Notes under the pieces: generated by a model
What the model was told of the DNA's origin: nothing
Databases searched by the model: none
What the model saw: only the letters and a program-made list of their open reading frames with translations
Source of the DNA: a virus
Virus record (IMG/VR): IMGVR_UViG_3300009506_000211
Span: 1 to 21,103 of that record
Length of the DNA: 21,103 nt
Direction: 5' to 3' (one strand)
Shown: positions 205-18,418 of the stretch, piece after piece
How positions within the stretch are numbered: the first letter of the stretch is position 1
Layout of the letters: the number at the start of each line of letters is the position of its first letter
Program-made: the position numbers and the translations under genes

Positions 205-747
205 ATGAAAAAGTTTTTACAATTCCTAGCATTTGGCATCCTCTATGGATGTACTTGTTTGGGGCAACTCCCAACCCAGTATGTCTATGTTGATGAGAAC
301 TGTAATGCAGTACTCCCCGACTATAGCCAATTAGTCATGGTACAAGATAACTGCAATAACCCATCTCTCTATCAAGCTCCAGAACCTGGAACCATTATTA
401 CAGAAACTACCAATGTAGAAATGAAAGCAGTTGATGTATATGGAAATCATAGTGAAATGTATTTTGATGTGGTATTATTGGATACCATACCTCCTACTAT
501 GATGTTAAATCCAGATTGGGCATATACAGATAAAGAAGTATCAGATATGTATCGGACTTTTTATGGGCATACCCAATTAAGATTTATTAAATATAATGAA
601 GAATATGCTGGGGATACCATAGAATATGAAATAGATACAATGAAGGTTGTATGGGTGGTGGATACTGTAAAAGTATTTCAAAATACTATCCCAATACCAG
701 ATAATATTTCTGATGTTAGTTGGTGGTGGGCAGAATCTTCAAACTAA
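205..747 (+). CDS. Secreted HYR-like (Ig-fold) protein with Q-rule signal peptide
   Basis: The start at 205 gives 180 residues beginning MKKFLQFLAFGILYG, a basic n-region and hydrophobic core followed by CTCLG|QLP, which fits signal peptidase I cleavage before Gln. An ATG at 190 would add five residues. A lipobox reading at LYGC is possible but Tyr at -2 is poor. Residues about 25-100 look like a HYR/Ig-type domain as found in Bacteroidota surface proteins: a DNC motif, a Pro-Gly turn, then KAVDVYGNHSE (the usual D..GN motif) and a closing DTIPP. The C-terminal 80 residues are acidic and aromatic and not recognised. TAA at 745-747 overlaps the next ATG (TAATG), implying translational coupling. 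It is probably exported to the periplasm or cell surface; whether it is a virion part or a host-surface modifier cannot be told. Confidence 0.7.
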   Translation: MKKFLQFLAFGILYGCTCLGQLPTQYVYVDENCNAVLPDYSQLVMVQDNCNNPSLYQAPEPGTIITETTNVEMKAVDVYGNHSEMYFDVVLLDTIPPTMMLNPDWAYTDKEVSDMYRTFYGHTQLRFIKYNEEYAGDTIEYEIDTMKVVWVVDTVKVFQNTIPIPDNISDVSWWWAESSN

Positions 748-1145
748 TGAATAACCAGGATGCTATCGTTTGTCGATTTAAGAATACTGTAAAATATCTT
801 AGAGAGACAAGGGAATTAGAACTTGAAGAAATCGCGGTATTAACCGAGTTGAATCAAGTTACTATTCAAAAGGTTTTGGATTCCTCTAAAGGTAGCGAGT
901 TGAATATCCGTAATGATACTTGGAGCAAGATAGAAGATTTCAATGAACATTACAGAGAAGAGGTGGGGGAATTACCAGTAGCTGGGGAAGCAGAAGAAAC
1001 GGTTAATTCTTATCACTTTAAAGGTAATGGTAAGGGAAAGAAAGAAGATGTCTTGGTAGTGGATGATGATAAGAAATGGAAAGCACTCCGTGATATAGTA
1101 GAAGCCTTTGATATGAAGGTAACAGTAACCATTAATATAGAGTAG
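747..1145 (+). CDS. Small HTH-like protein within the structural operon
   Basis: The ATG at 747 overlaps the previous stop (TAATG) and is preferred to an in-frame TTG at 720. The 132-residue product has an N-terminal helical region with an HTH-like pattern: LEEIAVLTELNQVTIQKVLD at about residues 24-43, followed by a basic/polar helix containing the NDTWSKIEDF segment, much like the iA..tgvs..tv..vL spacing of LacI/XRE-type HTH domains. A linker with Gly and Lys (GNGKGKKED) leads to a C-terminal alpha/beta stretch ending in a beta-strand (KVTVTINIE). A DNA-binding or regulatory role is inferred from the HTH pattern alone; a small structural or assembly role is the alternative. It ends with TAG and the next gene starts 2 bases later. 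Confidence 0.6.
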   Translation: MNNQDAIVCRFKNTVKYLRETRELELEEIAVLTELNQVTIQKVLDSSKGSELNIRNDTWSKIEDFNEHYREEVGELPVAGEAEETVNSYHFKGNGKGKKEDVLVVDDDKKWKALRDIVEAFDMKVTVTINIE

Positions 1146-1147
1146 CC

Positions 1148-1996
1148 ATGAAAGTAATGGAAATTGATTTTCCTTTAACGGAAGACAAGGCTGAAGATAA
1201 GGTATTTAAATTTACTAATGCCGATGGTACTGTCTATGATATGACTGGTAGTACTGCTGCTTGTAAATTATACTTAGATGGCCCAGATTCAGCCCCTACT
1301 GAATTCGCTGCTTCTATTGATGTGGGTACTGGGAAAGTCACAATCCCATTCACTGCTACTCATACCGATAACCAGGGTACCTTTGAATATATCTTGGAGG
1401 AAACTAAAGCTACAACCCAGGTTATCCCATTGGTCAAGGGAAATGTTATCGTAATACCTTATGTACCATTCTCTGAATCCATAGAAGGTTATCTCACAAC
1501 TGAATTGCCTGCTAACTTAACCCTTACAGTTAATTACCAGAATCAAAGGGTAATGTATTGGAGAAGAATACTTCAGAATGCCTTCGAGATCTCAGATGCT
1601 AACCTTAATATAGAAGCTGCCTGGCCGACTCTAGTCAATGCTTTATTTGCAAAGTTAATAGTATTTGACGCATTAGAACTAGCACTCAAGGGTGCATTTA
1701 TACAGTTCGTAGGGGGCTCCTACACCGATACAACAACCATAACTGGGGGCGATATTAAAGCAATTGAAACAGGACCTACCAGGGTAGAATATTATGGAAC
1801 CTCAACTTCTGTAAAGGAAGCATTCTCTGCAAGTCAAGGTGGTATTAGTATGTTCGATGCACTTAAGGAATCTATCTGTGGGTTGGCAAACCATTTACAG
1901 GTTAAACTCCCAATGTGCGAAGATAGGACAGTACCAATCATTCCTCAGTACCACCAGAATCCAGATTGGGCTGGACAGGAAATAGGGGAAATCTAA
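1148..1996 (+). CDS. Phage baseplate/fibre protein with BppU-like N-terminal Ig-like domain
   Basis: The protein has 282 residues. The first 110 residues carry a pattern typical of the N-terminal domain of BppU-type upper baseplate proteins: a short beta-strand, EDKVFKFTNADGTVYDMTG (a linking D.dG..ydltG turn), a strand with CKLYLDG, then AASIDVGTGKVTIPFTA and a closing strand in GTFEYILEE. The remaining 170 residues contain an amphipathic helix around residues 140-180 and a Thr/Gly-rich beta region, and end in a Cys-containing Pro-rich tail. BppU-like domains attach fibres or receptor-binding proteins to baseplates, so this is probably an adaptor for the fibre-like proteins downstream. The assignment is by pattern only. 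TAA at 1994-1996 overlaps the next ATG. Confidence 0.6.
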   Translation: MKVMEIDFPLTEDKAEDKVFKFTNADGTVYDMTGSTAACKLYLDGPDSAPTEFAASIDVGTGKVTIPFTATHTDNQGTFEYILEETKATTQVIPLVKGNVIVIPYVPFSESIEGYLTTELPANLTLTVNYQNQRVMYWRRILQNAFEISDANLNIEAAWPTLVNALFAKLIVFDALELALKGAFIQFVGGSYTDTTTITGGDIKAIETGPTRVEYYGTSTSVKEAFSASQGGISMFDALKESICGLANHLQVKLPMCEDRTVPIIPQYHQNPDWAGQEIGEI

Positions 1997-2262
1997 TGGA
2001 AAAGAAATTCACTTTCTCAATAAAGGATATTATCTATATCATAGTAGCTATATCCGGTTGGTTATGGAATATCGTTGATAAGAAAATTAACGATGCCACT
2101 TTAGAAGTTAAAATCGAAAAGGTACTTGAAAACGATGAAAAACGTGAGGGCTATTGGCTTAACCAAAATGAAATTAATGGTCGTATTCTTATTTATATGC
2201 AGCTTGCTCCTGACAGGTCAGGAACCCAAGAAGAAGGAGACCAAGAAGAAGGAACCCCCTAA
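1996..2262 (+). CDS. Small single-pass membrane protein, candidate inner-membrane spanin-like (Rz-like) subunit
   Basis: The ATG at 1996 overlaps the preceding TAA; an upstream in-frame TTG at 1966 is less likely. The 88-residue product has a basic N-terminus (MEKKF), one transmembrane segment at about residues 9-23 (IKDIIYIIVAISGWLWNIV), then a charged helical region (EVKIEKVLENDEKREGYW) predicted to be coiled coil, and a polar tail. One N-terminal anchor followed by a periplasmic helix is the layout of Rz-type i-spanins. The last 128 bases also encode, in another frame, a protein with a signal peptide, which is the nested arrangement known for Rz/Rz1 pairs. Residues after about 75 are a Gln/Glu/Gly repeat that may exist mainly because the other frame uses the same bases. 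A holin or membrane adaptor is the alternative. Confidence 0.55.
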   Translation: MEKKFTFSIKDIIYIIVAISGWLWNIVDKKINDATLEVKIEKVLENDEKREGYWLNQNEINGRILIYMQLAPDRSGTQEEGDQEEGTP

Positions 2263-2398
2263 GAAGGAACATACTGTGGTAGATACCACTACGGTTGTTG
2301 TTTCTGAAAGGGAACCTTTAGATACCATTGCCTTAGAGCAAAGAAAGGTAATGAAGGAGATGGATAAAATCCTTGATGAAAAGAAAAAGAAAAAGTAA
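2135..2398 (+). CDS. Small secreted Lys/Pro-rich protein nested in the preceding gene, candidate Rz1-like outer spanin
   Basis: This frame overlaps the previous gene by 128 bases. ATG codons at 2135, 2168 and 2177 are possible starts. All include a signal peptide with core LMVVFLFICSLLLTG followed directly by Gln, so cleavage G|QEPKKK obeys the Bacteroidetes Q-rule. The mature part begins with a Lys/Pro/Glu repeat (EPKKKETKKKEPPKKEH), then a Val/Thr stretch, and ends with a charged helix of Glu and Lys. Rz1 outer-membrane spanins are small, Pro-rich and nested in Rz, which fits, but a clear lipobox is missing (LFIC has Ile at -1). The TAA at 2396-2398 overlaps the next ATG. Lysis function is inferred from the arrangement, not from sequence similarity. 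Confidence 0.5.
   Translation: MKNVRAIGLTKMKLMVVFLFICSLLLTGQEPKKKETKKKEPPKKEHTVVDTTTVVVSEREPLDTIALEQRKVMKEMDKILDEKKKKK
2226..2253 (+). repeat. 15-bp-period tandem repeat shared by two reading frames
   Basis: A 13-base unit (ccaagaagaagga) occurs at 2226-2238 and again at 2241-2253, so the period is 15 bases. It lies inside the overlap of the two small envelope genes. Because 15 is a multiple of three it gives a QEEG repeat in one frame and a KKKE repeat in the other. A third, partial copy follows at about 2260. Confidence 0.7.
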
Positions 2399-2850
2399 TG
2401 CTTACCCCTGCTCAATGGCAATCATATAAGGACATTGTTAATCAGGCTTCAGAAAGTTTCAATCAAGAAACTGTAACCTGGTATAGGCTAGCCCGTAACT
2501 TTCAAAGATATGGAGAAGATAATGGTCCAGTATATGATCAAAGATCTTTACCATGTCTTATATCCTATAATGTATTTAGGGTATGGCCTATGACTAAAGA
2601 GACAGATTCTGGAGCCCTTGATCAAGAGAGTTTGGTTATGATGCTTAATATACAACAAATGTCTGATTTGGGATATTTAAATGCTGCTGGATTTTTGGAT
2701 ATGGACCCTGGTCAAGATTATTTTGTACATATGGGTTTAGAGTACAGGGCTGCAGGGGAAACTCCAGTATCTCAAGCAGGGGATGAACCTCTACATATTT
2801 ATGTAATTCTTAAAAGGATGGATACCCCAACCGGAACACAAAAATATTAA
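2398..2850 (+). CDS. Small phage structural protein, probably neck/head-tail joining type
   Basis: The protein has 150 residues and a start coupled to the preceding stop (TAATG). The N-terminal third is helical (LTPAQWQSYKDIVNQASESF). After it comes a beta-rich part in which residues 95-145 read as strands separated by acidic turns: FLDMDPGQDYFVHMGLEYRA, then a Gly-Glu-Thr turn, SQAGDEPL, and a last strand HIYVILKR. This compact beta-barrel look, with a closing strand ending in KR, is typical of small connector or head-closure proteins, but I do not recognise the family. No signal peptide is present, unlike its neighbours on both sides. A cytoplasmic virion assembly role is inferred. Confidence 0.5.
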   Translation: MLTPAQWQSYKDIVNQASESFNQETVTWYRLARNFQRYGEDNGPVYDQRSLPCLISYNVFRVWPMTKETDSGALDQESLVMMLNIQQMSDLGYLNAAGFLDMDPGQDYFVHMGLEYRAAGETPVSQAGDEPLHIYVILKRMDTPTGTQKY

Positions 2851-2852
2851 CC

Positions 2853-5800
2853 ATGAAAAAACTACTTTTTATATTTACCTTTTTACTAATTGCCTTAGGA
2901 TTATCTGCCCAGAGGATATTTCCTAATGGTATTGGTATAGGAATATATGTTATCATTGACTCGGTAAAGATAGATGGTAGTGGTATGGTATTCTATGCTG
3001 GGGGAGTTGCATATGCTACAGATGATGGAGGTGGGGGCACAGTTGGTGATTCATCTTTTGTATCTGCTTTGATTGGACAGATTAGGGAATATACTACAGA
3101 TGCCGGAGTTGATATAGAATATATGATTGTCGAGGATAACACAATTCTATTCAATGAAGTCACTGCACCTTCAGCTCCTTCGGCAGATGATGGTATATTA
3201 TATATGGATCAATCCGATGAAAAAATATATTTTAAAACTAATACGCAAACATATGATTTGACCGGGGGAGGAGGTACAGTTACAAGTGTAGCTGCTGGTG
3301 ATGGAATGGACTTTACTTCTATTACCACAACTGGTTCCGTAACTATGGGAACACCCAGTACATTGGATTATACTACAACCAATAGTGTATCGGGAACTAC
3401 ACACACCCATGCATTAAGCCTATCAAACTTTAATTCAACCACACCAGGTTTAGCACCTGGTAGTGGTGGTGGAACCACTAATTTTATGAGGGCGGATGGT
3501 ACTTGGGCAGCTCCACCAGGTACTAGTTATACATTCCAATACTCGATTGCAGAATCAGGGGGTACAGTTAATCTTTCTGGTGATGTAGCCAGCCCTGGTA
3601 ATACATATTATTATGGTACTAATGGTTCAGGAACAAGAGGATGGTATACATTCCCATATACTGGTACAGTAACATCAGTTGCTGCTGGAAATGGTATGAG
3701 TTTCACTACCATTACTGGGAGTGGCAATGTTACTCTTGGAACTCCGAGTACTTTGACCTTATCTACGTCGAACTCGGCATCCGCTGGTACACATACTCAT
3801 CAGCTTAGTATTGCGAATTTCACTGCTAGTACTGCAGGACTTGCCCCATTATCTGGAGGAGGTACAGCTAACTATCTAAGGGCGGATGGAACATGGGCTA
3901 CACCTCCTGGCTCTAGTTATACTTTCCAATACTCTATTTCAGAATCTGGTGGTAATGTAAATTTAACTAATGATGAATCAGCTCCTGGTAATAATGAATT
4001 TTATGGGACTTCAGCTGCAGGTACTAAAGGATGGAGAAATCTAAATACCATTACTGTTCTGGGTACAATTGCTACAGGTACTTGGCAGGGATCAGTTATA
4101 GGGGCAACTTATGGGGGTACTGGGTTAACAAGTATATCTACTTTACTTAATTCAAATACAACTAAATCAGATGTAGGACTAAGTCTAGTAGAGAACACAG
4201 CTTTATCAACTTGGTCAGGTAATACATCTATAAGTTCTGTGGGTACAATAGGTACAGGTACATGGAATGCGAATTCTATTGGGGATAGTTATATTGATAA
4301 TAATATTACCTTAGATAATCTAACCCAGATAACTACAAGGGCAGCTACATCATTAACCGGTACTGCTTGGAGGGTATTTTATGTAAATGGTACTGGTAAT
4401 GTAACGGAGTTGGGATTAGGTGCTAGTGGAACTTACCTTGGATCTAATGGGACCACTTCAGCTCCTACATGGAGTACCCCTTCAGGTTCCGGAGATGTAT
4501 CTAAAGTAGGAACTCCAGTTCAATATCAGGTTGGTGTATGGACAGGAGATGGTACAATTAAAGGAGATGCGGATTTTACCTTTGATGATAATAATGTTAC
4601 TGTAACTGGGTTTATGCAATCATCAGTAACTCTTGCATCTAATCCCGCTTTAACCGGGGGTCGAGCTACACCTGCTGCTAATGGGATCATATTTGAGGGA
4701 ACTACTGCAGATGCAATAGAAACGCTTTTAACCGTGGCTGATCCAACATCTTCAGATAAGACTTTAACATTACCAAATGCTACTGGAGATATTGCTATTA
4801 CAACATCTGCAATGACTGGTACCTATGATGGTAATAATTTTGGTGGGGGTGCAATAGGTGCAGGCGATATATTATATGGGTCTGCTGCTGGTACTATTTC
4901 AGAATTGGGTGGAGCCGTAACTGGTAATGCTTTAATATCTGGGGGAACCAGTTCAGCCCCTTCATGGGGTAAGATAGGATTAACTACTCATGTTAGTGGT
5001 AATTTACCAGTAACAAACCTTAACTCAGGTACAAGTGCAAGTTCATCAACCTTCTGGAGGGGAGATGCTACATGGTCTGCTGCAGTAACTTCGGTAGCTG
5101 CAGGCAACGGATTAGATTTTACAACCATTACTGGAACCGGGTCTGTAACCTTAGGTACCCCAGGTACTTTAACATCGGCAACATCTAATGGGGTTACTTC
5201 AACAAGTCACACCCATGCCATAACTACGGGAATAGCTAATACCAATATAGTAAGAATAGATGCAACAGATGTAGCTACTGGGAGGTTTCCACAGTTTACA
5301 GCTAATGGGTTGGATGGGTTAACTGCTGCAGAAATGTTAACAGCAATAGGGGCTGGTACTGGAGATGGTACAGTAACATCTGTAGCTGCAGGTAATGGGA
5401 TGTCTTTTTCATCGATTACAAGTGCTGGTTCAGTTACTCTTGGAACTCCTTCAACTTTGACATTATCTACAACAAATGAAGCGACATCAGGTACACATAC
5501 ACACGCCCTTTCAATTTCTAATTTTTCTTCAGGAGCGGCTGGTTTAGCTCCTGCTTCTGGGGGGGGTACAACGAATTATTTACGAGCGGATGGAACGTGG
5601 GCTGCTCCTACAGCAGCTCCGACAGATACAGCGGTTCTTGGAACTCTTACAAATTTGAATACCGATACATCAGATATAATGTATTTTGGTTTGATTGGCG
5701 CGTCTAATATGGACGTTGGGGAGCACATAGAAGCTGGTATTTATAGGAATACTTCTCCTAGTGATACGATTGTTCTTATCTGTACAGTAACTGATATGAC

Positions 5801-6047
5801 AGGAACAACTCCTTCTCTAGATTTTAATATAGAGAAGCACACGACATTACAAAGTGGTTCTTCTTCAAATTTATTCCCTTCAGATCAAACAGTAACTGGT
5901 AATAGTGGAACTGGCGATACAGATTATTTTCCAGCGAGTACGTACCTATTGCCTGGGGAGGTGGCGTGGATTGATATATCCTCGTATACTGCTGGAGATG
6001 CAATATTTATCAAATTATGTGGGCAATGGCAAAATCGATCGTTTTAA
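2853..6047 (+). CDS. Fibre-like adhesin with Q-rule signal peptide, 130-residue repeats and HxH motifs
   Basis: The 1064-residue protein opens with MKKLLFIFTFLLIALGLSA|QRIF, a signal peptide with Gln at +1. Residues 141-270 and 271-400 are two gap-free tandem repeats, and shorter copies start at about 743 and 839. Each repeat starts with a TVTSVAAGNGM-like strand, continues TLGTPSTL, contains a THTH or SHTH motif (184-186, 314-316, 786-788, 882-884), and in copies 1, 2 and 4 ends with a GLAP..GGG, RADGTWA segment. Residues 400-740 hold other fibre motifs (GTIATGTWQG, GTIGTGTWNA, DKTLTLPNATGDIAIT). This composition is that of trimeric phage tail fibres, where HxH motifs can bind metal ions in the shaft, as in the T4 gp37 tip. 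The last 130 residues look like a beta-sandwich head that may bind the receptor. The signal peptide is unexpected for a virion fibre. It overlaps the next gene by 22 bases. Confidence 0.8.
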   Translation: MKKLLFIFTFLLIALGLSAQRIFPNGIGIGIYVIIDSVKIDGSGMVFYAGGVAYATDDGGGGTVGDSSFVSALIGQIREYTTDAGVDIEYMIVEDNTILFNEVTAPSAPSADDGILYMDQSDEKIYFKTNTQTYDLTGGGGTVTSVAAGDGMDFTSITTTGSVTMGTPSTLDYTTTNSVSGTTHTHALSLSNFNSTTPGLAPGSGGGTTNFMRADGTWAAPPGTSYTFQYSIAESGGTVNLSGDVASPGNTYYYGTNGSGTRGWYTFPYTGTVTSVAAGNGMSFTTITGSGNVTLGTPSTLTLSTSNSASAGTHTHQLSIANFTASTAGLAPLSGGGTANYLRADGTWATPPGSSYTFQYSISESGGNVNLTNDESAPGNNEFYGTSAAGTKGWRNLNTITVLGTIATGTWQGSVIGATYGGTGLTSISTLLNSNTTKSDVGLSLVENTALSTWSGNTSISSVGTIGTGTWNANSIGDSYIDNNITLDNLTQITTRAATSLTGTAWRVFYVNGTGNVTELGLGASGTYLGSNGTTSAPTWSTPSGSGDVSKVGTPVQYQVGVWTGDGTIKGDADFTFDDNNVTVTGFMQSSVTLASNPALTGGRATPAANGIIFEGTTADAIETLLTVADPTSSDKTLTLPNATGDIAITTSAMTGTYDGNNFGGGAIGAGDILYGSAAGTISELGGAVTGNALISGGTSSAPSWGKIGLTTHVSGNLPVTNLNSGTSASSSTFWRGDATWSAAVTSVAAGNGLDFTTITGTGSVTLGTPGTLTSATSNGVTSTSHTHAITTGIANTNIVRIDATDVATGRFPQFTANGLDGLTAAEMLTAIGAGTGDGTVTSVAAGNGMSFSSITSAGSVTLGTPSTLTLSTTNEATSGTHTHALSISNFSSGAAGLAPASGGGTTNYLRADGTWAAPTAAPTDTAVLGTLTNLNTDTSDIMYFGLIGASNMDVGEHIEAGIYRNTSPSDTIVLICTVTDMTGTTPSLDFNIEKHTTLQSGSSSNLFPSDQTVTGNSGTGDTDYFPASTYLLPGEVAWIDISSYTAGDAIFIKLCGQWQNRSF
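3273..4052 (+). repeat. Two direct tandem repeats of 390 bp (130 residues) in the fibre gene
   Basis: Units at 3273-3662 and 3663-4052 encode residues 141-270 and 271-400. They align without gaps over the whole length, both contain the SVAAG start, the THTH motif and the SYTFQYSI..SGG segment, and differ at many synonymous sites, so the duplication is not recent. Confidence 0.85.
5079..5252 (+). repeat. Third, shortened copy of the fibre repeat
   Basis: Residues 743-800 repeat the first half of the 130-residue unit (AVTSVAAGNGLDF to SHTHAIT). The RADGTW half is missing and the sequence runs into a different stretch at about residue 800. Confidence 0.7.
5367..5609 (+). repeat. Fourth copy of the fibre repeat
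   Basis: Residues 839-919 repeat the unit from GTVTSVAAGNGM through THTHALS to RADGTWAAP. The SYTFQY third is replaced by the C-terminal beta domain. Codon choice here is more T-ending than in copies 1 and 2. Confidence 0.75.
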
Positions 6048-6763
6048 TAGGATTGTTATGTCTTTTTCCATTTTTAGTTAATGGGCAAAGAGTGTTGCAA
6101 CGTTATCCAATTTATTCTGGAGCTCCTCCTGATTCTGTAGGAACAGCGGAGTTATGGTTTCAAATGGAGAACAATAGCGCTGATTCATCTGGCAATGCTA
6201 GAGATGCAACTTATTCTTGGAATTACACAACTACTGATGCTCCGCAAGGTAGTTATTGGCTGACGTCTAATGGGTCGAGTTCTGACTTTATTCCTTTAGA
6301 TTTTACTCATAATGACACAATCACTATGTTTTGTCGTATGCGATATGATGCTACATCTGTGACTAATTTAGCGGAATGGGGATTTTTTGCTCCAGATAAT
6401 TCTGGATGGGTATGGAGATTAGATGCGGCGAACGATGCTATAGATTTTGATAAAAAAGTGTCAGGTACTACTTATTATTCTAGGTCTAGTAATGGTGTTC
6501 TTGACATAAATACTTTATTTAGTTTAGCAGTAGTTGTAAGAGGTCAGCATACAAGATTTTTCGTAGATGGTTCTAAGGTTGCTTCTCCAGATAGCGTCAC
6601 TACTTCTGGTGCGATGTCCCCTAGTGATTCTCTTACTATTACTTCAATTTTATATGGAGAGTTTGACGATTTTCAGTTCTATAATAGGGCTGTGCCTGAT
6701 GATAGTATTCTTTATTTGCATAATCACGTAGGTTATATCCTTAAATATTTACCAGCGGAATGA
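6026..6763 (+). CDS. Secreted LamG/concanavalin-like carbohydrate-binding protein
   Basis: The ATG at 6026 gives 245 residues starting MAKSIVLIGLLCLFPFLVNG|QRV, again a signal peptide with Gln at +1; the ATG at 6017 would add three residues. The mature part is one LamG-type (Laminin_G_3-like) jelly-roll: an opening strand with AELWFQME, the DSSGNARDATY turn, a central strand TITMFCRMRYD, a VVVRGQHTRFFVDGSKV hairpin and the closing GEFDDFQFYNRAVPDDSI, which matches the D-d-v-r-i-Y-n-r-a-L hallmark of this family. Such domains bind glycans or proteins at surfaces. Together with the fibre before it and the large protein after it, it forms an adhesion block. The final TGA overlaps the next ATG (ATGA), so translation is coupled. 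Confidence 0.8.
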   Translation: MAKSIVLIGLLCLFPFLVNGQRVLQRYPIYSGAPPDSVGTAELWFQMENNSADSSGNARDATYSWNYTTTDAPQGSYWLTSNGSSSDFIPLDFTHNDTITMFCRMRYDATSVTNLAEWGFFAPDNSGWVWRLDAANDAIDFDKKVSGTTYYSRSSNGVLDINTLFSLAVVVRGQHTRFFVDGSKVASPDSVTTSGAMSPSDSLTITSILYGEFDDFQFYNRAVPDDSILYLHNHVGYILKYLPAE

Positions 6764-9700
6764 AAAAGTTAATATTTATATTGTTTGTTTTTATTTCGGT
6801 GTTTGCGAATGCTCAGTATTACGTAGTCCAGAATGGCCAGTTTATTACTACAGGTTCTGGTCAATATGTAAAAACATCTGGAGGTGATTATACACCTGGA
6901 CCCTCATTTCAAGATAATTTCGATTCGTATTCCAATGGTTCTGAGCTTGCAACTCAGGGTTATTGGGATGAAGAAAGGGGTACTATAAGAGTTTATAATA
7001 CAGGTTCTGATGGTGAGCCTTATCCAGACGTTTCTTCGACAGAAGTTGCAGTTTATTATATAGCTTCTATAGCAGCAAATCAATATAGTCAAGTTACAGT
7101 AACAGCTTTAGCCGCATCTTTGGCTATAGGGCCTGCTGTAAGATGTCAGGGCGGAACAGGTTATTATTATGGTTGGTATTCTACACCTACTGCTTCTTAT
7201 CTTTTTCGTAATGATAATACCATATGGACTCAGTTAGCCATCGGGACTGGTTGGAGTGTTAATGATGTAGTTAGATTGGCTGTTGCTGGTGATACTTTAT
7301 ATTGTTATAGGAATGGGGTATTAGATACATCTGTAGATACGGATGGGAAATATACAGATGCTTCTGCTGGTAAATTGTCTTCTGGATATGTAGGTCTTGC
7401 TGCTTATGGTTCTTCTACATCTACAAGATGTGATTCTTGGTCTGCTTGGACATTTACCTCTCCTGCTCAACCCCCTGGGACTACTGGTCAAGGTACCTTA
7501 TTATTTTATCAGGATTTTGAAAGTATGGCACTAACAGAGGCAGTTACATCAACTCATGTAGATACAATTATGGGTATTGGGGAGCCGAGTTTTAGTTTTC
7601 ATATGACTGATAATCCAGTTAAAATATTAAATGAAACAACAGCTGGGAATTATATGAGAGGATGGATGGATGCAACTACTACAGGTGCAAGTGGTGGTTA
7701 TGAAATGTTTAAAACATTAAGAGGAACTGATAGTCCACATTATGATCCTGAAAGTACTGGATGGACAGTACCTACAAAATATAATGATAAAACAGAATTA
7801 TGGTTTGGTTGGGCTGTAAGATACGAAACAGGATTTGAGGAAGCTTTGGATGGAAAGACAGGGTTTAAATCATATGGGAGTGAGGCAATGTGGGATTATG
7901 ATGGATCACAGGGTTGGGAGAATTTTGTTGATGGGTATGCTATAAATACTACATATGATGGGAACTATCCTTCTACTACTTACCATGCTAATATGGTTTA
8001 TCGTAAAGAAATGCATTATGATTATGGATATAAAACCTTATGGGAAAATGGATGGCCTAATGGTAGTTATATAGCTGTAGATGACGATTGGCACCATATT
8101 GGACTTAGAATAGTTTTAGATCCAAACCCACCGGATTCTATAAATGGATTTCTGGAATATTTTTACGATGAAGTATTAGTCAATAGGCAGGATACTTTAT
8201 TTTTGAGAACAGATGATTCAATTCAAATTGACTGGGCTTGTTGGAGATGGTATCCAAGTAGTTCTACATCAGCACCAGATGTAGATTGGTATTCTGATAT
8301 AGATAATTTAAGTATTTTTGAATTTTCTAGTGGGGATAGTACTTATACTGGAACTGAAAGAACTCCAATAGGGGGAACTGTTGATTTTCCAGGATGGCCT
8401 ATGGATGAAGATACTACCGGTTGGGGCGATTTTGATGAGCCTCTAGATCCTCCCACTCCCCCACCTTCTTATGCTCAGTTTGATATTGCGCATGATTTCT
8501 ATGTTTATACTCCTGAAGGACAAGGCAATGGAGATAGGATTATAGAGCTTTCTTATAATAGGTTTTGGGAACCTCTAGGTACAATAACATATACAAAAAT
8601 ATATGGATCTAGTGATTTTGCTTTTAGTAGTTCTGATTCTATTTTGTATGCTACTACTGATCTTACACCAGGCTCTTATACAGTTAGGTATTTAATAGAG
8701 GACAGTGATCAGATTTGGGATACAGCTTCAGTTTATATAACTGTAACTTCAGATGCAGATAACCACTATGTTGATTTAGATACTTTGACAGATCCAGCTT
8801 ATATTCCAATAGTTGATGGGGATTATACTTATTTAGAAAGAGGTTCATCTTTTGCATCTGCGCAGTATCTTTATATCAATAGTATTGACAACTGGGTATT
8901 GGGGGCGTACGGAGATGGGGCTAGACCTCATTTGGAGGTGAAGGAGCGTTATCTTTCTGGGCGTGGAGTATTTGATGTTTATAATTGTTCAAATGCCACA
9001 GTTCGGGATATCGAAATTTATAATAACAACGGAGTATCTTATTACTTTACAATCTATCTTAGTGGTACTTCTGATGGATTTGTTTTAGATAACTGTGAGG
9101 TTCATGGCAATAGCACTTATGCCTTTTCTACAATTCGTGTAGCTGGTCCTATATCTGGGGGCGCTATCCGTAATAATATTTTACATGATACTTATGATGA
9201 TGGTGTTCAAATATATGCCAATTTAGCTGGAACATCTACATCTAATAGGTTTATTTGGGAGAATAATTGGATTCATACTGTAAATAAAGCTAGTGGGGGC
9301 GGGGATTGTATTCAGTTTTCTAATTCAGATTATCCGACAGTTACTAGAGATTCTCGTTATAATCATTTTAGGTATAATCTTTTTGATAGGACTAATAATG
9401 CAGATAAGTATTCTTTATTGTATGAGAATGGATATACATATGCTACAGCTGACATAGGAACTTTAATAGAGTATAATAGAATTGAGGGCTATCGAGGGGC
9501 TAATAGAGTTTCTCAAAATGGTGTGGCCTTAGGCAACGCTAGAGGGACAATTTTTAGATATAATACGATTCATGGTACTGGACGAGGATTGGCTCTTTGG
9601 TCTGATAATGATGGGGGTTTAACAAATAGTTATATTAAAATATATGGTAACCTATTTGAGGATTGTGATACAACTTCTATTAGATTACATACAGCTGATA

Positions 9701-11988
9701 CCAATGGAGATGCAGATTATACAGAAATTTACAATAACACTTTTGTTAATTATGCTGAGGGCGGTGGTGAAGCTATAGATATCGATGCTGGAAACATAGG
9801 AACAGATATAAGGAATAATATTTTTTACTATGGGACTAGCGCATCTAATTCTATAGTTGGTACTGTTGGAACAGAAGATTATAATATATTTTATCCTGAT
9901 GCTCTTAGCTATAGTTATGGTACTCATTCTGATACGTTGGATCCAAATTTTATTACAGGTTTTGATAGTGACTACGAGATTACTACTTCTAGTAATGCTT
10001 ATAAGTTTGGGACAGCCGTTGGTTTATCAACAGATCGGTGGGGTACTTCTTGGTTAAATCCCCCTAGTGTAGGGTATAAAGAGTATGTAGATTTTCAAAT
10101 AGCGCCATCTGTTACAATATATAAATTTATTGATTTTAGCGAGCTTACTCCTGGAGCTACAAGTGTATCTGAGTTTAATACATCCTTTGAAACATCTCTT
10201 ACTAGGACTGCCGGGGGTGTAGATAATGATTCTATTAAAATAGTTACTCAGGATACAGTTTGGAGTGTAACATATCCTGCTGGGTTAGCTGCAGATGAAG
10301 GAGTACAATATACTGGATGGCCTTATTACAATGGTACAGATAATACTGACGATACACTTACTTATGTGAATCATACGTTTTATATGAGGCTTACTGGAGA
10401 CTGGCAGTGGGAATCCGGTGGAGCGTGTAAGATGATAGGGTTGGGAGGAAGAGATGTTGATGATAGTCCTGGTCCAGCAGGGGGCATTTATGGGCCTACT
10501 TGTATTGATAGTGTTCCTTATTACGAAGCTGATATGGGATTTAGTACTAGAGGTCAATGGACAGAAGATAATCCCGGGCTTGGTAGATTAGATGATATAG
10601 GCTATTATTTTTATTCTCATAGTGATAGCATGGATTGGAAAGATTGCGATGTTTCCGTTACTTATGGGGAGACTTTACTTCCTGGTTTAACTTGGGAGGT
10701 AGGTAAATGGTATAAGATAACACAAAGATTTATTCTTAATAGTGTTTCGTCTCCAGGAAATGCGAATAATGATGGAATTCTGGAATGGTTTAGGAATGAT
10801 ACTTGTTATATTTCTCGTCAGGTAGAGATTTTTAGGAAGTATGAGGATGTAAAGATTGATTATCTTTATTACGCTAATTTAACAAGGCCGGATGCTTCTA
10901 GAACAACTGATCAGCAAATTGAGTATGATGATATTTGTTTGTGGGTAGATGATAATCGTTCAGCTATCGGTTTGGGTAATGTTCAAGTTTCCCCTGATGT
11001 TGGTTCTGACAATAGGCTTACAAATGATACGGTTGTTGTAGTATATTCTAATGATTTCGATCATCTGACTTCAAATTCTGTTTATCCTTTGGATAGTCTT
11101 AATGCCGATTATCCATATCGTCCTCCTTATTTTCCGAATTTTCAGAATTATAATAATGTTTATATTTATTCTTTGAGCGGCAATAATGCTTTAAGATGGT
11201 TCTTCGCTGATGGAACAACATCTAGTCAAAGTACTCATGGTGCGAAGTGGAGAGGCTTTTTTACTCAGGATTCTGTAGCTTATGAAGAGCTTTATTACTC
11301 TTATGATCTCTATGTACCTACAGGTAATTATGTAGATGCTGCTGATGAAGTAACTACTGGTAAAGTTCCCTCTGTTGGAGGACTTAGTGCATGGGTTTAT
11401 GATTTAACTCATACATTCCCATATTATGACGAAGGTTTTTCTGCGGGTATTAGATTTAAAAGTAATGTTTCGGGATCGACAATTTATTTAACTAATTATC
11501 TTTACACGCATAATTTAATTACTGCTGTAGGAGGTACTCAGTATTATTGGGCGAGTGTACCTTTTATGGATCCAGATAATTTGAGTAATGTTTATTATTG
11601 GCCATTAAATACTTGGGTAAATATAACCGTTAGGATTGTAATGAATGATGTTGATCCGCAGGTTCCGGAAGCGAATTGGAATAATAATGATTTAGGTGAT
11701 GGATCTACAAATGGTCTTTATCAAGTATTCATTAATGGAAAGTATTCAGCATCTATTGATACAGTTAGATGGAGAAATTTACCTGGTATCGGAGTTGATG
11801 TTATGAGGATGTATTCTGAATGGAATGATGTTACAGATGGTGATCAAAAATGGTATACAGATAATCATTACTTCTGGTATTACGGCGATGCTGTTGATCC
11901 TCCTAAAGGCAATACTGAATTATATTATCCGGGGGATACATTAATTTTTCCACAATCCTGGAGTCATGCTGACTTTGGTTTTTGGTAG
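6760..11988 (+). CDS. Giant secreted multidomain protein: beta-helix plus PL14-like concanavalin modules, candidate depolymerase
   Basis: The 1742-residue protein begins MKKLIFILFVFISVFANA|QYYV, a Q-rule signal peptide. In order: a short beta repeat (QNGQFITTGSGQYVKTSGG, 24-42); a concanavalin/LamG-like domain (about 48-235); a second, larger sandwich resembling polysaccharide lyase family 14 (about 245-525), with ELWFGWAVRYETGFEEALDG and the closing DWYSDIDNLSIFE; an Ig-like linker (about 570-665); a right-handed parallel beta-helix (about 668-1105) with rungs such as VRDIEIYNNNG, AIRNNILHD, FIWENNWIH, FRYNTIHGT and EIYNNTFVN; a third sandwich (about 1115-1400) with WYKITQRFILN and EYDDICLWVDD; and a fourth (about 1424-1715) with YYSYDLYVP and TWVNITVRIVMN. 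Beta-helices and PL14-like folds are known in capsule and alginate depolymerases, so polysaccharide binding or cleavage is inferred. Catalytic residues are not assigned. There is no T9SS C-terminal domain. It ends TAG TAA. Confidence 0.75.
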   Translation: MKKLIFILFVFISVFANAQYYVVQNGQFITTGSGQYVKTSGGDYTPGPSFQDNFDSYSNGSELATQGYWDEERGTIRVYNTGSDGEPYPDVSSTEVAVYYIASIAANQYSQVTVTALAASLAIGPAVRCQGGTGYYYGWYSTPTASYLFRNDNTIWTQLAIGTGWSVNDVVRLAVAGDTLYCYRNGVLDTSVDTDGKYTDASAGKLSSGYVGLAAYGSSTSTRCDSWSAWTFTSPAQPPGTTGQGTLLFYQDFESMALTEAVTSTHVDTIMGIGEPSFSFHMTDNPVKILNETTAGNYMRGWMDATTTGASGGYEMFKTLRGTDSPHYDPESTGWTVPTKYNDKTELWFGWAVRYETGFEEALDGKTGFKSYGSEAMWDYDGSQGWENFVDGYAINTTYDGNYPSTTYHANMVYRKEMHYDYGYKTLWENGWPNGSYIAVDDDWHHIGLRIVLDPNPPDSINGFLEYFYDEVLVNRQDTLFLRTDDSIQIDWACWRWYPSSSTSAPDVDWYSDIDNLSIFEFSSGDSTYTGTERTPIGGTVDFPGWPMDEDTTGWGDFDEPLDPPTPPPSYAQFDIAHDFYVYTPEGQGNGDRIIELSYNRFWEPLGTITYTKIYGSSDFAFSSSDSILYATTDLTPGSYTVRYLIEDSDQIWDTASVYITVTSDADNHYVDLDTLTDPAYIPIVDGDYTYLERGSSFASAQYLYINSIDNWVLGAYGDGARPHLEVKERYLSGRGVFDVYNCSNATVRDIEIYNNNGVSYYFTIYLSGTSDGFVLDNCEVHGNSTYAFSTIRVAGPISGGAIRNNILHDTYDDGVQIYANLAGTSTSNRFIWENNWIHTVNKASGGGDCIQFSNSDYPTVTRDSRYNHFRYNLFDRTNNADKYSLLYENGYTYATADIGTLIEYNRIEGYRGANRVSQNGVALGNARGTIFRYNTIHGTGRGLALWSDNDGGLTNSYIKIYGNLFEDCDTTSIRLHTADTNGDADYTEIYNNTFVNYAEGGGEAIDIDAGNIGTDIRNNIFYYGTSASNSIVGTVGTEDYNIFYPDALSYSYGTHSDTLDPNFITGFDSDYEITTSSNAYKFGTAVGLSTDRWGTSWLNPPSVGYKEYVDFQIAPSVTIYKFIDFSELTPGATSVSEFNTSFETSLTRTAGGVDNDSIKIVTQDTVWSVTYPAGLAADEGVQYTGWPYYNGTDNTDDTLTYVNHTFYMRLTGDWQWESGGACKMIGLGGRDVDDSPGPAGGIYGPTCIDSVPYYEADMGFSTRGQWTEDNPGLGRLDDIGYYFYSHSDSMDWKDCDVSVTYGETLLPGLTWEVGKWYKITQRFILNSVSSPGNANNDGILEWFRNDTCYISRQVEIFRKYEDVKIDYLYYANLTRPDASRTTDQQIEYDDICLWVDDNRSAIGLGNVQVSPDVGSDNRLTNDTVVVVYSNDFDHLTSNSVYPLDSLNADYPYRPPYFPNFQNYNNVYIYSLSGNNALRWFFADGTTSSQSTHGAKWRGFFTQDSVAYEELYYSYDLYVPTGNYVDAADEVTTGKVPSVGGLSAWVYDLTHTFPYYDEGFSAGIRFKSNVSGSTIYLTNYLYTHNLITAVGGTQYYWASVPFMDPDNLSNVYYWPLNTWVNITVRIVMNDVDPQVPEANWNNNDLGDGSTNGLYQVFINGKYSASIDTVRWRNLPGIGVDVMRMYSEWNDVTDGDQKWYTDNHYFWYYGDAVDPPKGNTELYYPGDTLIFPQSWSHADFGFW

Positions 11989-11993
11989 TAACT

Positions 11994-12578
11994 ATGGCAA
12001 TTAAAGGTGCACAACATGGGATTAGAGGTAGGGGCTCCTATAATGTAGGGGTTAGACTAGAGGGTGACGTTATTAAGTTTAATTTACTTACTAGCAGTTT
12101 GAGTCCTTTACTAGCAGCGTCAGTTTTGAGTGCCCAACACGATTTTGCAAGAGACTATAAAGATAAAGTTAAACAAAATATTATAGAAGGTGGAAAACGT
12201 TTCCATTACCCACCCCATTCAACTAAGTATAGTAGGTATAAAGCCAGATTAGGGGGACCAAGTAGATTACTATATTGGAGTGGAGCAATGGCAAATAGTA
12301 TAGAGATTAAGGCAACAAAGGATGGAAAAAATTTTACTGTTGGTATTCCAAAAGGTGAAAACAGACCATCATATGGTAAGGGGGATAATAATAGATTATC
12401 TATAAGTGAGTATGCTAATATCCTTGAACATGGTAGACCTCCTTATATGCCAGCTAGGCCTGTATTCTCAGATACTTTTAGAGAACAGATGGGGGGATTA
12501 AAAGGTTTGAAAAAAGCAATAGAAACTGGTATTATTTTAAACATGGGTAAATTAGGATATAGAGTAAATAAAGTATAA
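11994..12578 (+). CDS. HK97 gp10-like tail completion protein
   Basis: The ATG at 11994 lies 5 bases after the previous stop; an upstream in-frame TTG at 11982 is unlikely. The 194-residue product has a basic N-terminal arm, a long helix (LAASVLSAQHDFARDYKDKVKQNI, residues about 41-64), a beta region with LYWSGAMANSIEIKAT, and near the C-terminus YANILEHGRPPYMPARPVF. That last motif, an E.G..-P.-pARPvf block followed by a helix, is the signature of HK97 gp10/Mu virion-morphogenesis-type tail completion proteins that join tail to head. Position just before the tail terminator and sheath supports this. No signal peptide: from here on the products are cytoplasmic. Confidence 0.75.
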   Translation: MAIKGAQHGIRGRGSYNVGVRLEGDVIKFNLLTSSLSPLLAASVLSAQHDFARDYKDKVKQNIIEGGKRFHYPPHSTKYSRYKARLGGPSRLLYWSGAMANSIEIKATKDGKNFTVGIPKGENRPSYGKGDNNRLSISEYANILEHGRPPYMPARPVFSDTFREQMGGLKGLKKAIETGIILNMGKLGYRVNKV

Positions 12579-13340: not shown

Positions 13341-14867
13341 ATGCCGAATGCCGCTAAAGTTCAGTTTAACGTAAAGAATTTCACTCCCGGTATTTCAGAT
13401 CCCCAGCCGGCTATCTTTTACGTATTAGGGATTACAAAAAGAGGTCCCGTAGAGCAACCCGAATTGAACGTATCCCTGGTGAACAGTTGGGCCAACTTTG
13501 AAAGGGTATTTGGAGGTCTGATGGAAACATCAGATTTTCCATATCTTTGTAAGAGAGCCTTATCAAGGGGTGCAAGGTTGAGGATATGTAGGGTAGATGC
13601 TGCATCTACTGCTGCAGTTAAGGCAACCGCTAAAAACATACAGAATGGGGATGGTTCTCCTGTGACCCTTTTTACGGTTCAGCCTAAATACAAAGGGGCA
13701 GACTACAACAATTTTACAGTTGAGATTAAAGCTGCTTCTAATGGGGATTCCAACTATTGGAATATGGAGTTGGTCCATGCAAATGAACCTGAGCTGAATG
13801 AAACCTACCAGAATATCCCAGCTTTCATTGCCGATACTGCAAATAATCAAACCTGTTTGGATGAGGTAAAATCTGCATCCAGGAATTTTGATTTCACATA
13901 TGCTGATGCATCTACTGCTGTATTACTGGTTCCTGCCGTTGCTGCAGCTTCTGCCTTTACTGGTGGGGTTGATCCTTCTGGACATGTTGCATCTGACTAT
14001 TCAGGGGCTATGCCCGAGTTTGATGATGTTGATGATGGGATTGCCATGGCAGTACCCGAGCAGGATGATGATGCAATTAATGCTGCGGGTATCACATATG
14101 CTGCAAGTAGACAGGATATGGTATTCTTTGCCCATTTACCCAATTCAATCACCACTGCTGCTGGACTGGTTACAGAAAGAGAAACTGTGGGGAATGATTC
14201 CAAGTTTGGCGCTTTCTTCGGTGGGGGTATTAGGGTAAGAGAAGAAAGGACTCTCCAGGAAAAAGCAATGTCGGAAATGGGAGATGTACTGGGGGTTGCC
14301 GCCTATGTATATAATAACTATGGGCTGTGGTATTCTATTGCGGGGCAAACCAAGGGAGCGGTTCAGGATGCATTGGGGGTTGTTACCAATTTTGGTACCC
14401 CAGCTGGATTTGCAGATCTGAATACACTGGCAAATGCCCAGATCAATATGTTGGTGGTTAAGAATGGAATTACCCAGCTTTCTGGGAACTTCTCTGCACA
14501 ACTGGCTAATAACCAGGAGAAGTTTTTAAACGTGGTAACGCTGGAGCTTTATCTTAAGGCTACACTGAAACCCATTCTTGAAGGTTATCTTGAAGAACCC
14601 AACGACCCCATTACTTTCAAGAAAATTTATTACCATGTAACTCCTTTCCTTGATAGGTTGGTATCTCCTGCTTACCGGGCTCTTTATAAGTATGAGTATT
14701 ATGGAGACCAGGATGCGAATACTATCGATGACCTTCAGATCAATGATCCTGTGGATGTACAAAACGGAAAATATAAAATCAATTTGAAAATATGGCCCAT
14801 CCCATCCATGCAAGAATTAACCTTTAATCTGATGCTTGTACAGGGAGAAGGGGTTTATATTGACTAA
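13341..14867 (+). CDS. Contractile tail sheath protein
   Basis: The 508-residue protein matches the Phage_sheath family. The N-terminus has FTPGISDPQPAIFYVLGITK, then GPVEQPELNVSLVNSWANFERVFGG, the usual threefold pattern of an N-terminal domain whose strand links subunits, and LCKRALSRGARLRICRV. The middle (about 230-420) contains the SRQDMVFFAHLP helix-strand segment and the alpha/beta sheath core, and the C-terminal domain (about 440-508) ends with INLKIWPIPSMQELTFNLML, the strand-exchange arm of sheath proteins. Sheath subunits stack around the tube and contract on infection. It uses more CTG, CCC and GCC codons than its neighbours, consistent with a highly expressed major structural protein. 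It is followed 21 bases later by the tube gene. Confidence 0.95.
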   Translation: MPNAAKVQFNVKNFTPGISDPQPAIFYVLGITKRGPVEQPELNVSLVNSWANFERVFGGLMETSDFPYLCKRALSRGARLRICRVDAASTAAVKATAKNIQNGDGSPVTLFTVQPKYKGADYNNFTVEIKAASNGDSNYWNMELVHANEPELNETYQNIPAFIADTANNQTCLDEVKSASRNFDFTYADASTAVLLVPAVAAASAFTGGVDPSGHVASDYSGAMPEFDDVDDGIAMAVPEQDDDAINAAGITYAASRQDMVFFAHLPNSITTAAGLVTERETVGNDSKFGAFFGGGIRVREERTLQEKAMSEMGDVLGVAAYVYNNYGLWYSIAGQTKGAVQDALGVVTNFGTPAGFADLNTLANAQINMLVVKNGITQLSGNFSAQLANNQEKFLNVVTLELYLKATLKPILEGYLEEPNDPITFKKIYYHVTPFLDRLVSPAYRALYKYEYYGDQDANTIDDLQINDPVDVQNGKYKINLKIWPIPSMQELTFNLMLVQGEGVYID

Positions 14868-14888: not shown

Positions 14889-15350
14889 ATGGCTAAAGTA
14901 GCAAATCCAAGGAAAAGGTTTAATTTCTCCATCCAGATTAGCCCGGACCCAATCAACCCGTTCTTATTTCAGAAGGTAACGTTACCTGATGCAGAAATTG
15001 AACAAGTTGCCCATGGTGATACCAACCATGATATTAAAACCGCAGGCCGTGTATCCTATGGGAACATAGTATGTGAGAAACTCATGGTTTCTGACCAGGC
15101 CGACAACTATTTGTGGAACTGGTTTGATACATGCCAGAGCTCTACAATTGGAGGGGGAGCTCCGCCAGAAATTTACAAGAAAGTTATTACCGTGGTTGAG
15201 TTTGCAGAGGACGGAGTCACTGTACTTAACACTTGGGTAGCTACCGGTGTATGGCCTTCTTCGTTACCCGGTCACGAGCTTGACCGAATGGCTTCTGAAA
15301 ATACCATTGAAAATGTAGAGTTCTCGGTAGATAAACTTCAGAAGGTTTAA
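14889..15350 (+). CDS. Tail tube protein (T4 gp19-like)
   Basis: The 153-residue protein is the normal size for a myovirus tube subunit. It starts MAKVANPRKRFNFSIQISPD, has the FQKVTLPDAEIEQVAHGDTN segment in which the tube family places its first strands and the loop that contacts the neighbouring subunit, and then NYLWNWFDTC and the last strands VITVVEFAEDG and ENVEFSVDKLQK. The subunits form the hexameric inner tube inside the sheath. As in the sheath gene, codons are GC-richer than in the surroundings. A strong intrinsic terminator follows 25 bases after the stop, separating sheath and tube from the chaperone and tape-measure genes and probably setting their relative levels. Confidence 0.9.
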   Translation: MAKVANPRKRFNFSIQISPDPINPFLFQKVTLPDAEIEQVAHGDTNHDIKTAGRVSYGNIVCEKLMVSDQADNYLWNWFDTCQSSTIGGGAPPEIYKKVITVVEFAEDGVTVLNTWVATGVWPSSLPGHELDRMASENTIENVEFSVDKLQKV

Positions 15351-16390: not shown

Positions 16391-18418
16391 ATGGTAGGAG
16401 GTTCTAGTCTTGGTATAGGGTTAACTTTATTTTTAAGAGACCAGTTTTCTGGCCCTGCAGCCAGGATAAAGAATTCGTCTAGAGAATTGCAACAGCAATT
16501 CCAGATGATGGAAGACCAATTACGTTATCAGAGAAACCTAAATGCTGGATTAGCTTTTGGTGGGGCTATGGTATTAAGGGGATTTGGTAGGCAAATAAAA
16601 AAGGCAGCCGATTACCGTTATGAGATGGAGTTTGTAAAATCCATTACTGCAGCTAATACCGCAGAACAAAAACAACTTGCTAAAACTGCAGAGACTCTAG
16701 CTGGTAAAACTATGTTCTATCCTCAAGATATTGCTGAGGGCATGAGGTTCATGGCTATGGCGGGTATGGATGCAGAACAGGTGCTTCATAATATTTCCGG
16801 AGCTGTAAATCTTGCCGGTGCTACTATGTCTCAGTTAGGAGGTAAGGGTGGGGCTGCTGACATCATGACTAACGTCATGAAACAATTTGGTATAGATTTT
16901 AAAGATACCATATCAGTTGCAGACAAATTGGCATACGGAGTTACTCGTGCTAATACAAACTTATTTGACTTAGGTGAAGCACTAAAATATTCAGGTGCTA
17001 CTGCCATGGATTTAAATGTTACCCTGGATGAGTCCGTTGCTATGGTAATGGCATTAGGTAATGCTGGTATGCAGGGATCTATGGCTGGTGTTGCTATGGA
17101 AAATGCCATGAGGTATATGGCTAGAGCATTCTCAGACTTTGCTTCTGGGCCAAGTAGGAAGGCACTAGCAGAAATTGGGTTAACCGTTACAGATGTGACA
17201 GACCAGGCTGGTAACCTACTTTCCATGACTGAGATCATGACTAGGTTTGGTAATGCCATAGATCAGAATTTTGGGTCTGGGATGAATGTTCAGAAACAAG
17301 CCATTCTTCAAAATATATTCGGTGTTAGAGGGAAAAGGGCAGGATCATTATTCTTAAGAAACCTTAAAGAATTCCAAAAATTTAGCGGGGATGTTGCTTC
17401 TCAATCAATTGGACATTCTGGTAGGATCATGGAGGATATGATGTCTACCTTTAAAGGGGAAATGGATAAGCTCATATCAGAATTCCAATCTATGTGGATT
17501 GCTATAACCACTGCGATTGAACCAGTAGGTAAAGCAATAGTGAAAGTATTAAGAGTTATAACAAAGGCCCTTTCATTTACATTTAAGATTCCATTTCTTG
17601 GGGAATTTCTTGCAGGAGGGGTTATTGGGTTCGTAGCTATTAGGACTGCAGCTTTTGCATATACAGCAGTAGTTAAGGGACTACAGTTGTTACATATGCA
17701 AGCTAAGCATTCTGCAATAAACATGTCTACCTCTGGTATAGCTGGGTGGAATGCTATGTCTGCTGCAGCCGCTAGGTATGCAGGTATAGTTAAATCTGGG
17801 GCTATCAGCGAAATGGTTGGGGCTGGTATGATTAGAGGATTAACATTAAATAAGGCTGGTAGGATAGTAGCTCAGAGTAGTAAAACTGGAATGAAAACCT
17901 TTGTTAGTGGAGCTGCAGCTGCTGGAGTAATGACTGGGGCTTCTAGGGTGGTTGGGGGTAAAGTAATTGCTAATACTGCTGGAAGATTTGCTCTTGGTAA
18001 ATTGGTTGGAATACTTGGGGGACCTTTAGGAATGGCTTTAAGTTTTATTCTTCCTGCAGCTATTACTGCGATGGTAAGAGCATTTAAGGGTAATAAAGAT
18101 TCTTTGGATAAAAATACAGATGCCCTTAATAAAAAAGGTGAAAGTGCTATGTCCATATTCTCTGGTCAATCAGACCAAGTAATGAGGTTTACAGATCTCC
18201 AAGCTCCAGCTCTTCAGGTAGTAGGGGCAGCTGCATCTGATAGGTTACAGAATAACCTTATGCAGGAGAATATGGCTTATTACCAGAAGCAGTTAACTGA
18301 TATTCTTAATAAAGAGATGAACCAAACAATAGTAATTAATGTGGCTGGGGAAGAACAATTTAGACAAACTATTGAAAGGTATATGTTTGATAACGTGGAT
18401 AGAATAATAGGACAATAA
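16391..18418 (+). CDS. Tape measure protein (TP901 core)
   Basis: The protein has 675 residues. Residues about 70-250 form the conserved TP901-type tape-measure core: YEMEFVKSITAANTAEQKQL, a helix LAKTAETLAGKT, MFYPQDIAEGMRFMAMAGMD, then NISGAVNLAGATMSQLGG, ADKLAYGVTRANTNLFDLGE, ALKYSGATAMDL and ENAMRYMARAF. Two hydrophobic stretches follow, at about 395-420 and 530-560, typical of tape measures that enter the host membrane. The C-terminus carries the NQTIVINVAGEEQFRQTIER strand-helix. Tape-measure length sets tail length: at about 0.15 nm per residue this predicts a tail near 100 nm. The start follows the end of the chaperone extension by two bases. It has a coiled-coil N-terminus and is Ala/Gly/Met-rich. 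Confidence 0.9.
   Translation: MVGGSSLGIGLTLFLRDQFSGPAARIKNSSRELQQQFQMMEDQLRYQRNLNAGLAFGGAMVLRGFGRQIKKAADYRYEMEFVKSITAANTAEQKQLAKTAETLAGKTMFYPQDIAEGMRFMAMAGMDAEQVLHNISGAVNLAGATMSQLGGKGGAADIMTNVMKQFGIDFKDTISVADKLAYGVTRANTNLFDLGEALKYSGATAMDLNVTLDESVAMVMALGNAGMQGSMAGVAMENAMRYMARAFSDFASGPSRKALAEIGLTVTDVTDQAGNLLSMTEIMTRFGNAIDQNFGSGMNVQKQAILQNIFGVRGKRAGSLFLRNLKEFQKFSGDVASQSIGHSGRIMEDMMSTFKGEMDKLISEFQSMWIAITTAIEPVGKAIVKVLRVITKALSFTFKIPFLGEFLAGGVIGFVAIRTAAFAYTAVVKGLQLLHMQAKHSAINMSTSGIAGWNAMSAAAARYAGIVKSGAISEMVGAGMIRGLTLNKAGRIVAQSSKTGMKTFVSGAAAAGVMTGASRVVGGKVIANTAGRFALGKLVGILGGPLGMALSFILPAAITAMVRAFKGNKDSLDKNTDALNKKGESAMSIFSGQSDQVMRFTDLQAPALQVVGAAASDRLQNNLMQENMAYYQKQLTDILNKEMNQTIVINVAGEEQFRQTIERYMFDNVDRIIGQ

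Follow-up and report, generated by a model that had tools for sequence, protein, structure and literature searches.

Predicted Sec signals followed by glutamine on fibre and polysaccharide-lyase genes in the structural region of a contractile-tailed phage

Canonical tailed-phage assembly is cytoplasmic. What, then, are export signals doing on genes for fibres and depolymerases? The question is raised by a 21,103-base fragment from a virus record in IMG/VR (IMGVR_UViG_3300009506_000211; we call this whole stretch the window), from a phage whose host we infer. Three consecutive genes of the window, encoding a fibre-repeat, a LamG/ConA-like and a giant polysaccharide-lyase protein, each begin with a predicted signal peptide directly followed by Gln. 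We lean slightly towards the explanation that their products are Sec-exported adhesins and depolymerases directed against host polysaccharide, which would become attached to virions after lysis.

Signal peptides in the window and their controls

The three genes form a block at positions 2853-11988 (the bar marks the predicted cleavage site):

2853..6047, + strand: fibre-repeat protein, 1064 amino acids; signal peptide 2853-2909, LSA|Q; N-terminal module common to contig L002 (see below), C-terminal part not
6026..6763, + strand: LamG/ConA-like protein, 245 amino acids; signal peptide 6026-6085, VNG|Q; Laminin_G_3 at ~6299-6709
6760..11988, + strand: giant multidomain polysaccharide-lyase protein, 1742 amino acids; signal peptide 6760-6813, ANA|Q; PL14 (PF21294) at ~10249-10869

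Signal peptides were called with a home-made rule-based predictor (not SignalP) with arbitrary thresholds. The initial annotation had listed five open reading frames (ORFs) with a signal and then Gln, and all five lie where it placed them, each with a basic N-region, an uncharged hydrophobic core, small residues at -3/-1 and Gln at +1. The three large genes are the strong cases: they show the full anatomy of signal peptidase I substrates under the Q-rule (n-, h- and c-region, small -3/-1, Gln at +1), and a Gln-blind version of the predictor calls them at identical sites (LSA|Q, VNG|Q, ANA|Q). The claim is weaker for the other two, as 205-747 could instead encode a lipoprotein and the 2135-2398 ORF, better started at 2168, occupies a spanin position. 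Nor are these two adhesins, a role that suits the three large genes with their fibre, sugar-binding and lyase domains. For these three, export is well supported as the straightforward reading of the sequences. Type IX secretion was considered and rejected: the C-termini matched nothing in Pfam or NCBIfam, and so show no type IX sorting domain.

The genes on either side provide the borders of the slot and the controls:

2398..2850, + strand: conserved neck-region gene, signal-free, left border of the slot; 72% identical in L002 and found in relatives
11994..12578, + strand: tail completion/Neck1-type gene (phrog_222), signal-free, right border of the slot
13341..14867, + strand: tail sheath, signal-free control
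14889..15350, + strand: tail tube, signal-free control
16391..18418, + strand: tape measure protein, signal-free control

The same predictor found zero signals among the sheath, tube, tape, neck and baseplate genes; an apparent signal peptide on a core gene opening at TTG 19472 reflects a wrong start, the likely one being ATG 19526. The division drawn in the initial annotation, with signals on the fibre/lyase genes and none on the capsid/tail genes, thus stands in the window, and it recurs in relatives and in isolated phages. The block starts almost gaplessly after the neck gene and ends at the tail-completion gene, and because it abuts or overlaps these flanking late genes we read it as part of the late operon.

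Could the signals be chance hydrophobic starts, or the product of a misassembly joining bacterial genes to a phage contig? Such an origin would fit the finding that the giant lyase has no homologue among named phages, in the phage collection or by a pattern search of IMG/VR. Against it, only two of 160 non-gene ORFs from this group of phages were signal-peptide-like, and the sole Gln-bearing case was the window's own 2126-2398 ORF, a rate of about 1/160. Furthermore, the block genes overlap one another on one strand between two conserved phage genes, and the pattern recurs in contigs L002, L135 and L136. The relatives largely refute this explanation, which we regard as very improbable.

The domain content is that of fibre or tailspike depolymerases, with fibre repeats, Laminin_G_3 and Polysacc_lyase_14 all present. 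The repeats of the 2853-6047 protein are of a type present in many phage fibres, and the giant lyase has, besides PL14, two more weakly similar domains and a region that looks beta-helix-like by inspection. The lyase had no PDB match, and a single-sequence AlphaFold model of the PL14 pair was discarded at a pLDDT (model confidence score) of 30. A signal peptide is not the norm for the fibre type of 2853-6047: among relatives whose start is intact, only 6/73 carry one.

The window is recognisable as part of a contractile-tailed phage from its PHROG matches for sheath, tube, tape measure, baseplate and tail-completion genes. All gene-like ORFs discussed here are on the + strand, and most of them touch or overlap their neighbours. 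The regions upstream of gene starts are AT-rich and without Shine-Dalgarno motifs, which together with Gln at +1 is compatible with a Bacteroidota host. In Porphyromonas, signal peptidase I substrates have Q-values of ~60% or more, against values typically <20% in Chlamydiae and Spirochaetes (PMC5837995). Sheath homology gave no host in a GTDB scan or in 395 genomes of Cellulophaga's phylum, nor through named phages, which matched the sheath at ~40% identity or less. Promoter-like sites were no commoner in the window than in shuffles, in a scan that does not cover Bacteroidota promoters.

Related blocks in environmental and cultured phages

Sheath relatives in IMG/VR numbered 25, the closest being L002 (86%). 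The same slot of L002 holds genes for a pectate-lyase-containing fibre (VSA|Q) and for proteins resembling ConA (VSG|Q) and PL14 (LYG|Q), with two further genes of signal peptide plus Gln upstream of the slot. The fibres of the window and L002 have the signal and approximately the first 170 residues in common, and not the remainder. In L135, an 85-kb contig of L021, signal-bearing fibre-repeat, LamG and 1586-residue beta-helix genes occur in the same order adjoining capsid genes. Gln stands at the predicted site in the LamG gene only; the third gene has LKG|A, and the first could encode a lipoprotein. L016 encodes a signal-bearing protein (ITA|F) between the neck and sheath genes that matches virion-structural and tail-spike PHROGs. 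In L003, L007, L008, L013-L015, L019, L021 and L023 the slot holds no signal-peptide block, and in L009 only one small membrane-type gene.

Runs of signal-bearing genes around a fibre gene were also seen in two IMG/VR contigs of higher GC content, L059 (4979-11373; VKA|E, VFA|E, AFA|D, VFS|E, with no Gln at +1) and L092 (6990-13863; mixed +1 residues). Exported fibre-like blocks may extend beyond Bacteroidota, with Gln as the Bacteroidota flavour.

Blocks like that of the window, with signal peptides plus Gln on fibre/lyase genes in the structural region, are found in the Cellulophaga baltica phages phi18:3 and phi13:2 (Pachyviridae) and phi10:1 and phi19:1 (Assiduviridae), as well as in the integrase-encoding phage Ingeline (Duneviridae), which has four such genes consecutively. 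Three of these, phi18:3, phi10:1 and phi19:1, are cultured isolates on C. baltica, and each has three to four consecutive fibre/lyase genes: gp85, gp86 and gp87 in phi18:3 (GYS|Q, VSA|Q, LNA|Q), gp91-gp94 in phi10:1 (LSA|Q, SFG|Q, VSA|Q, LNA|Q) and gp101-gp103 in phi19:1 (INA|Q, VSA|Q, LNA|Q), where the signal of gp104 is weak. Ten of the 11 signals are clear, and all ten have Gln at +1. As in the window, a conserved N-terminal module is joined to a variable C-terminus; the lyase and phage families are different, and no full-length homology to the window proteins was established. The annotations that we examined for these phages make no mention of the signals.

All 11 of these block proteins were labelled structural from tandem mass spectrometry (MS/MS) proteomics by the GenBank depositors, support that consists of annotation text on Cellulophaga phages and not on the window's phage. 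The signal-bearing proteins make up four entries in the MS/MS list of phi10:1 and three in that of phi18:3, which otherwise hold only capsid/tail-type proteins; among the latter (portal, capsid, connector, tail and others) a signal was found in 0/17. The comparison suggests that an exported class of protein reaches, or co-purifies with, Cellulophaga virions.

Export of fibres is not a rule for Bacteroidota phages: in our small, non-random survey of named ones, phi18:1, 11b, 6H, B124-14 and P2559Y had no fibre with a signal peptide plus Gln. The corresponding position in phi18:1, with head-closure genes on one side and tail-component genes on the other, is taken by a signal-free fibre, gp52 (L115 27114-28919), which is reported to be methylated in free virions (PMC13288928). 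The contractile Flavobacterium phage FCL-2 (L140 45363-45806) encodes a small protein, TYS|QVGIATTTPTETLDVNG, with a Q-rule signal on a fibre-like start.

Modularity of the block and the fate of its proteins

Which part of these proteins carries the export trait? In phi18:3 gp86 the signal and the following ~118 residues are 82-83% identical to those of counterparts in phi10:1, phi19:1 and phi13:2, whereas the C-terminal part differs. Conversely, the lyase domain of phi13:2 gp86 recurs signal-free behind a different N-terminus in phi17:2 gp54 and in gp97 of the crAss-like phi14:2, an MS/MS-detected tail protein. Since the whole N-terminus has been exchanged in the latter two, export appears to be a trait of the N-terminal module and not of the lyase fold. 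The initial annotation had stated that homologues lacking the hydrophobic N-terminus would refute its reading; such homologues do exist at the level of the domain, but there the entire N-terminus has been swapped.

The MS/MS-detected capsid and tail proteins of phi10:1 and phi18:3 have no homology detectable by BLASTP, and yet their signal-peptide blocks are homologous. A block common to phages without detectable capsid/tail homology is therefore best seen as an autonomous, transferable module, and it seems unlikely that its N-terminal part serves for docking to any single kind of tail.

The phage lyase also has homologues on the chromosomes of Maribacter and Cellulophaga (L117-L120, ~7600-9900; L121, 7614-9872), beside glycosyltransferase-like genes and with lipobox-type signals. 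Those of Maribacter lie in polysaccharide-biosynthesis-like (exopolysaccharide) clusters, which makes exopolysaccharide of the host itself the probable substrate of the block. Host and phage may also have exchanged lyases of this kind.

In the scheme that we propose, the block would act as an autonomous module of adhesins and polysaccharide lyases, expressed together with the late genes. The host Sec pathway would take its proteins out of the cytoplasm, signal peptidase I would cut before Gln and a host cyclase would cap the N-terminus so exposed. Once exported, the proteins would bind and cut host surface polysaccharide and, freed with the progeny at lysis, would attach to virions, giving these a second set of fibres, of exported origin, in addition to the cytoplasmic tail proteins. 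We favour this scheme because of the MS/MS lists, the place of the block among structural genes, and the conserved-N/variable-C design, which is seen in the window and L002 and in the Cellulophaga phages, as in receptor-binding proteins. The first option of the initial annotation, that the proteins are exported and end up with the virions, is thereby favoured through the Cellulophaga MS/MS annotation; for the window's phage the support for attachment is indirect and the cleavage is a prediction.

Several observations weigh against the scheme. The block is shared by phages without detectable capsid/tail homology and no phage-specific docking is evident, several Bacteroidota phages carry fibres without signals, and secreted proteins could co-purify with virions, the MS/MS evidence being annotation text on other phages. 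In addition, the signal-bearing PL14-like protein of L002 (6451-8271) has a hydrophobic C-terminal segment with a basic tail (WWWLLVLIPLIRKQFKRKLC) that looks like a membrane anchor or sorting signal and would suit an envelope protein.

Two other explanations follow from these points. The proteins may be exported and never be virion parts: as lyases and adhesins, either secreted or bound to the envelope, they would remove or alter the capsule and exopolysaccharide of the infected cell (which would aid release or block superinfection), and their presence in Cellulophaga virion preparations would be mere co-purification. The independence of the block from virion type, the membrane segment of the L002 lyase, the lyase homologues that are host exopolysaccharide-cluster lipoproteins, and the precedent of lambda Lom, an exported non-virion protein encoded among tail genes (PMC12309495), all speak for this; the otherwise purely capsid/tail content of the phi10:1 and phi18:3 lists and the presence of the same lyase domain on an MS/MS-detected tail protein of phi14:2 speak against it, and on balance we think it unlikely, if well worth keeping in view. 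Alternatively, the N-termini may be unused or only partly used for export, with virions assembled in the cytoplasm, as is canonical for tailed phages, and N-termini left intact or processed differently. The virion MS/MS assignments in the Cellulophaga phages would agree with this. However, the full signal anatomy and Gln at +1, kept across diverged proteins, are difficult to account for unless signal peptidase I and a cyclase act on them, and such N-termini are absent from the other virion proteins; we consider it improbable.

Smaller signal-bearing genes and comparison with known systems

Upstream of the neck gene lie the two smaller signal-bearing genes and the partner of one of them:

205..747, + strand: small exported protein (predicted), CLG|Q or lipoprotein (C16/C18)
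1996..2262, + strand: small membrane protein with a single N-terminal hydrophobic segment; partner of 2168-2398; no family match
2168..2398, + strand: small Lys/Pro-rich exported protein (predicted), LTG|Q; spanin-like position, no lipobox Cys

In 205-747, C16 and C18 directly precede G|Q. Its only relative, L136 6332-6949 (34% identity, E 3e-22), lies in a similar kind of place, keeps the Cys residues and G|Q and has a fair lipobox (LSSC), so that 205-747 may be a lipoprotein; an IMG/VR scan for further relatives returned only this already known contig. For the second gene, whose ORF opens at 2126 and which had been started at 2135, the likely start is 2168 (MKLMVVFLFICSLLLTG|QEP). It overlaps 1996-2262 out of frame in a spanin-like arrangement. 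L007 and L008 have the same overlapping pair, with a positional equivalent that has a hydrophobic N-terminus and no Gln. A two-component spanin would call for an o-spanin lipoprotein with a lipobox Cys, but here the mature part, beginning with Gln, is free of Cys; the L007 equivalent also lacks a lipobox.

Q-rule signal peptides on phage genes were already reported in Porphyromonas gingivalis phages (Nixviridae); there the genes are described as of unknown function and possibly modifying the outer membrane, and are not virion fibres or lyases (PMC10367356). Lambda Lom is likewise exported and encoded among tail fibre/spike genes, but it is a single outer-membrane protein, neither fibre nor lyase, and not in the virion (PMC12309495). 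The tailspike/tail-fibre depolymerases phi14:2 gp97 and phi17:2 gp54 share with the window proteins the sugar-binding and lyase domains and the modular N/C design, and differ in having a cytoplasmic N-terminal module and no signal peptide. The chromosomal L117-L121 lyases, homologous to that of phi13:2, resemble the window's in being of exported type, near exopolysaccharide genes; the Maribacter proteins have lipobox signals instead of a signal peptidase I site before Gln. Pantoea WceF is reported to be a bacterial exopolysaccharide lyase with a tailspike-type fold (PMC7949094). Target proteins of phage diversity-generating retroelements are stated to be without signal peptides (PMC6199706). 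No earlier report of Sec signals on virion-assigned fibres or lyases turned up in the literature searched, an absence that is no proof, and in the flavophage literature examined the term 'signal peptide' does not occur.

Taken more widely, it is conceivable, at somewhat less than an even chance, that some Bacteroidota tailed phages finish their particles outside the cytoplasm, with a transferable block of Sec-exported receptor-binding and depolymerase proteins, matured by signal peptidase I and glutaminyl cyclase, joining co-released virions after lysis whatever their tail type. Signal-bearing genes within tail operons need not be morons, a caution for annotation. Tailed-phage assembly is held to be wholly cytoplasmic; if the proposed scheme is true, the exported block would represent a second, post-export route to binding and depolymerase functions, usable by phages with unrelated capsids and tails.

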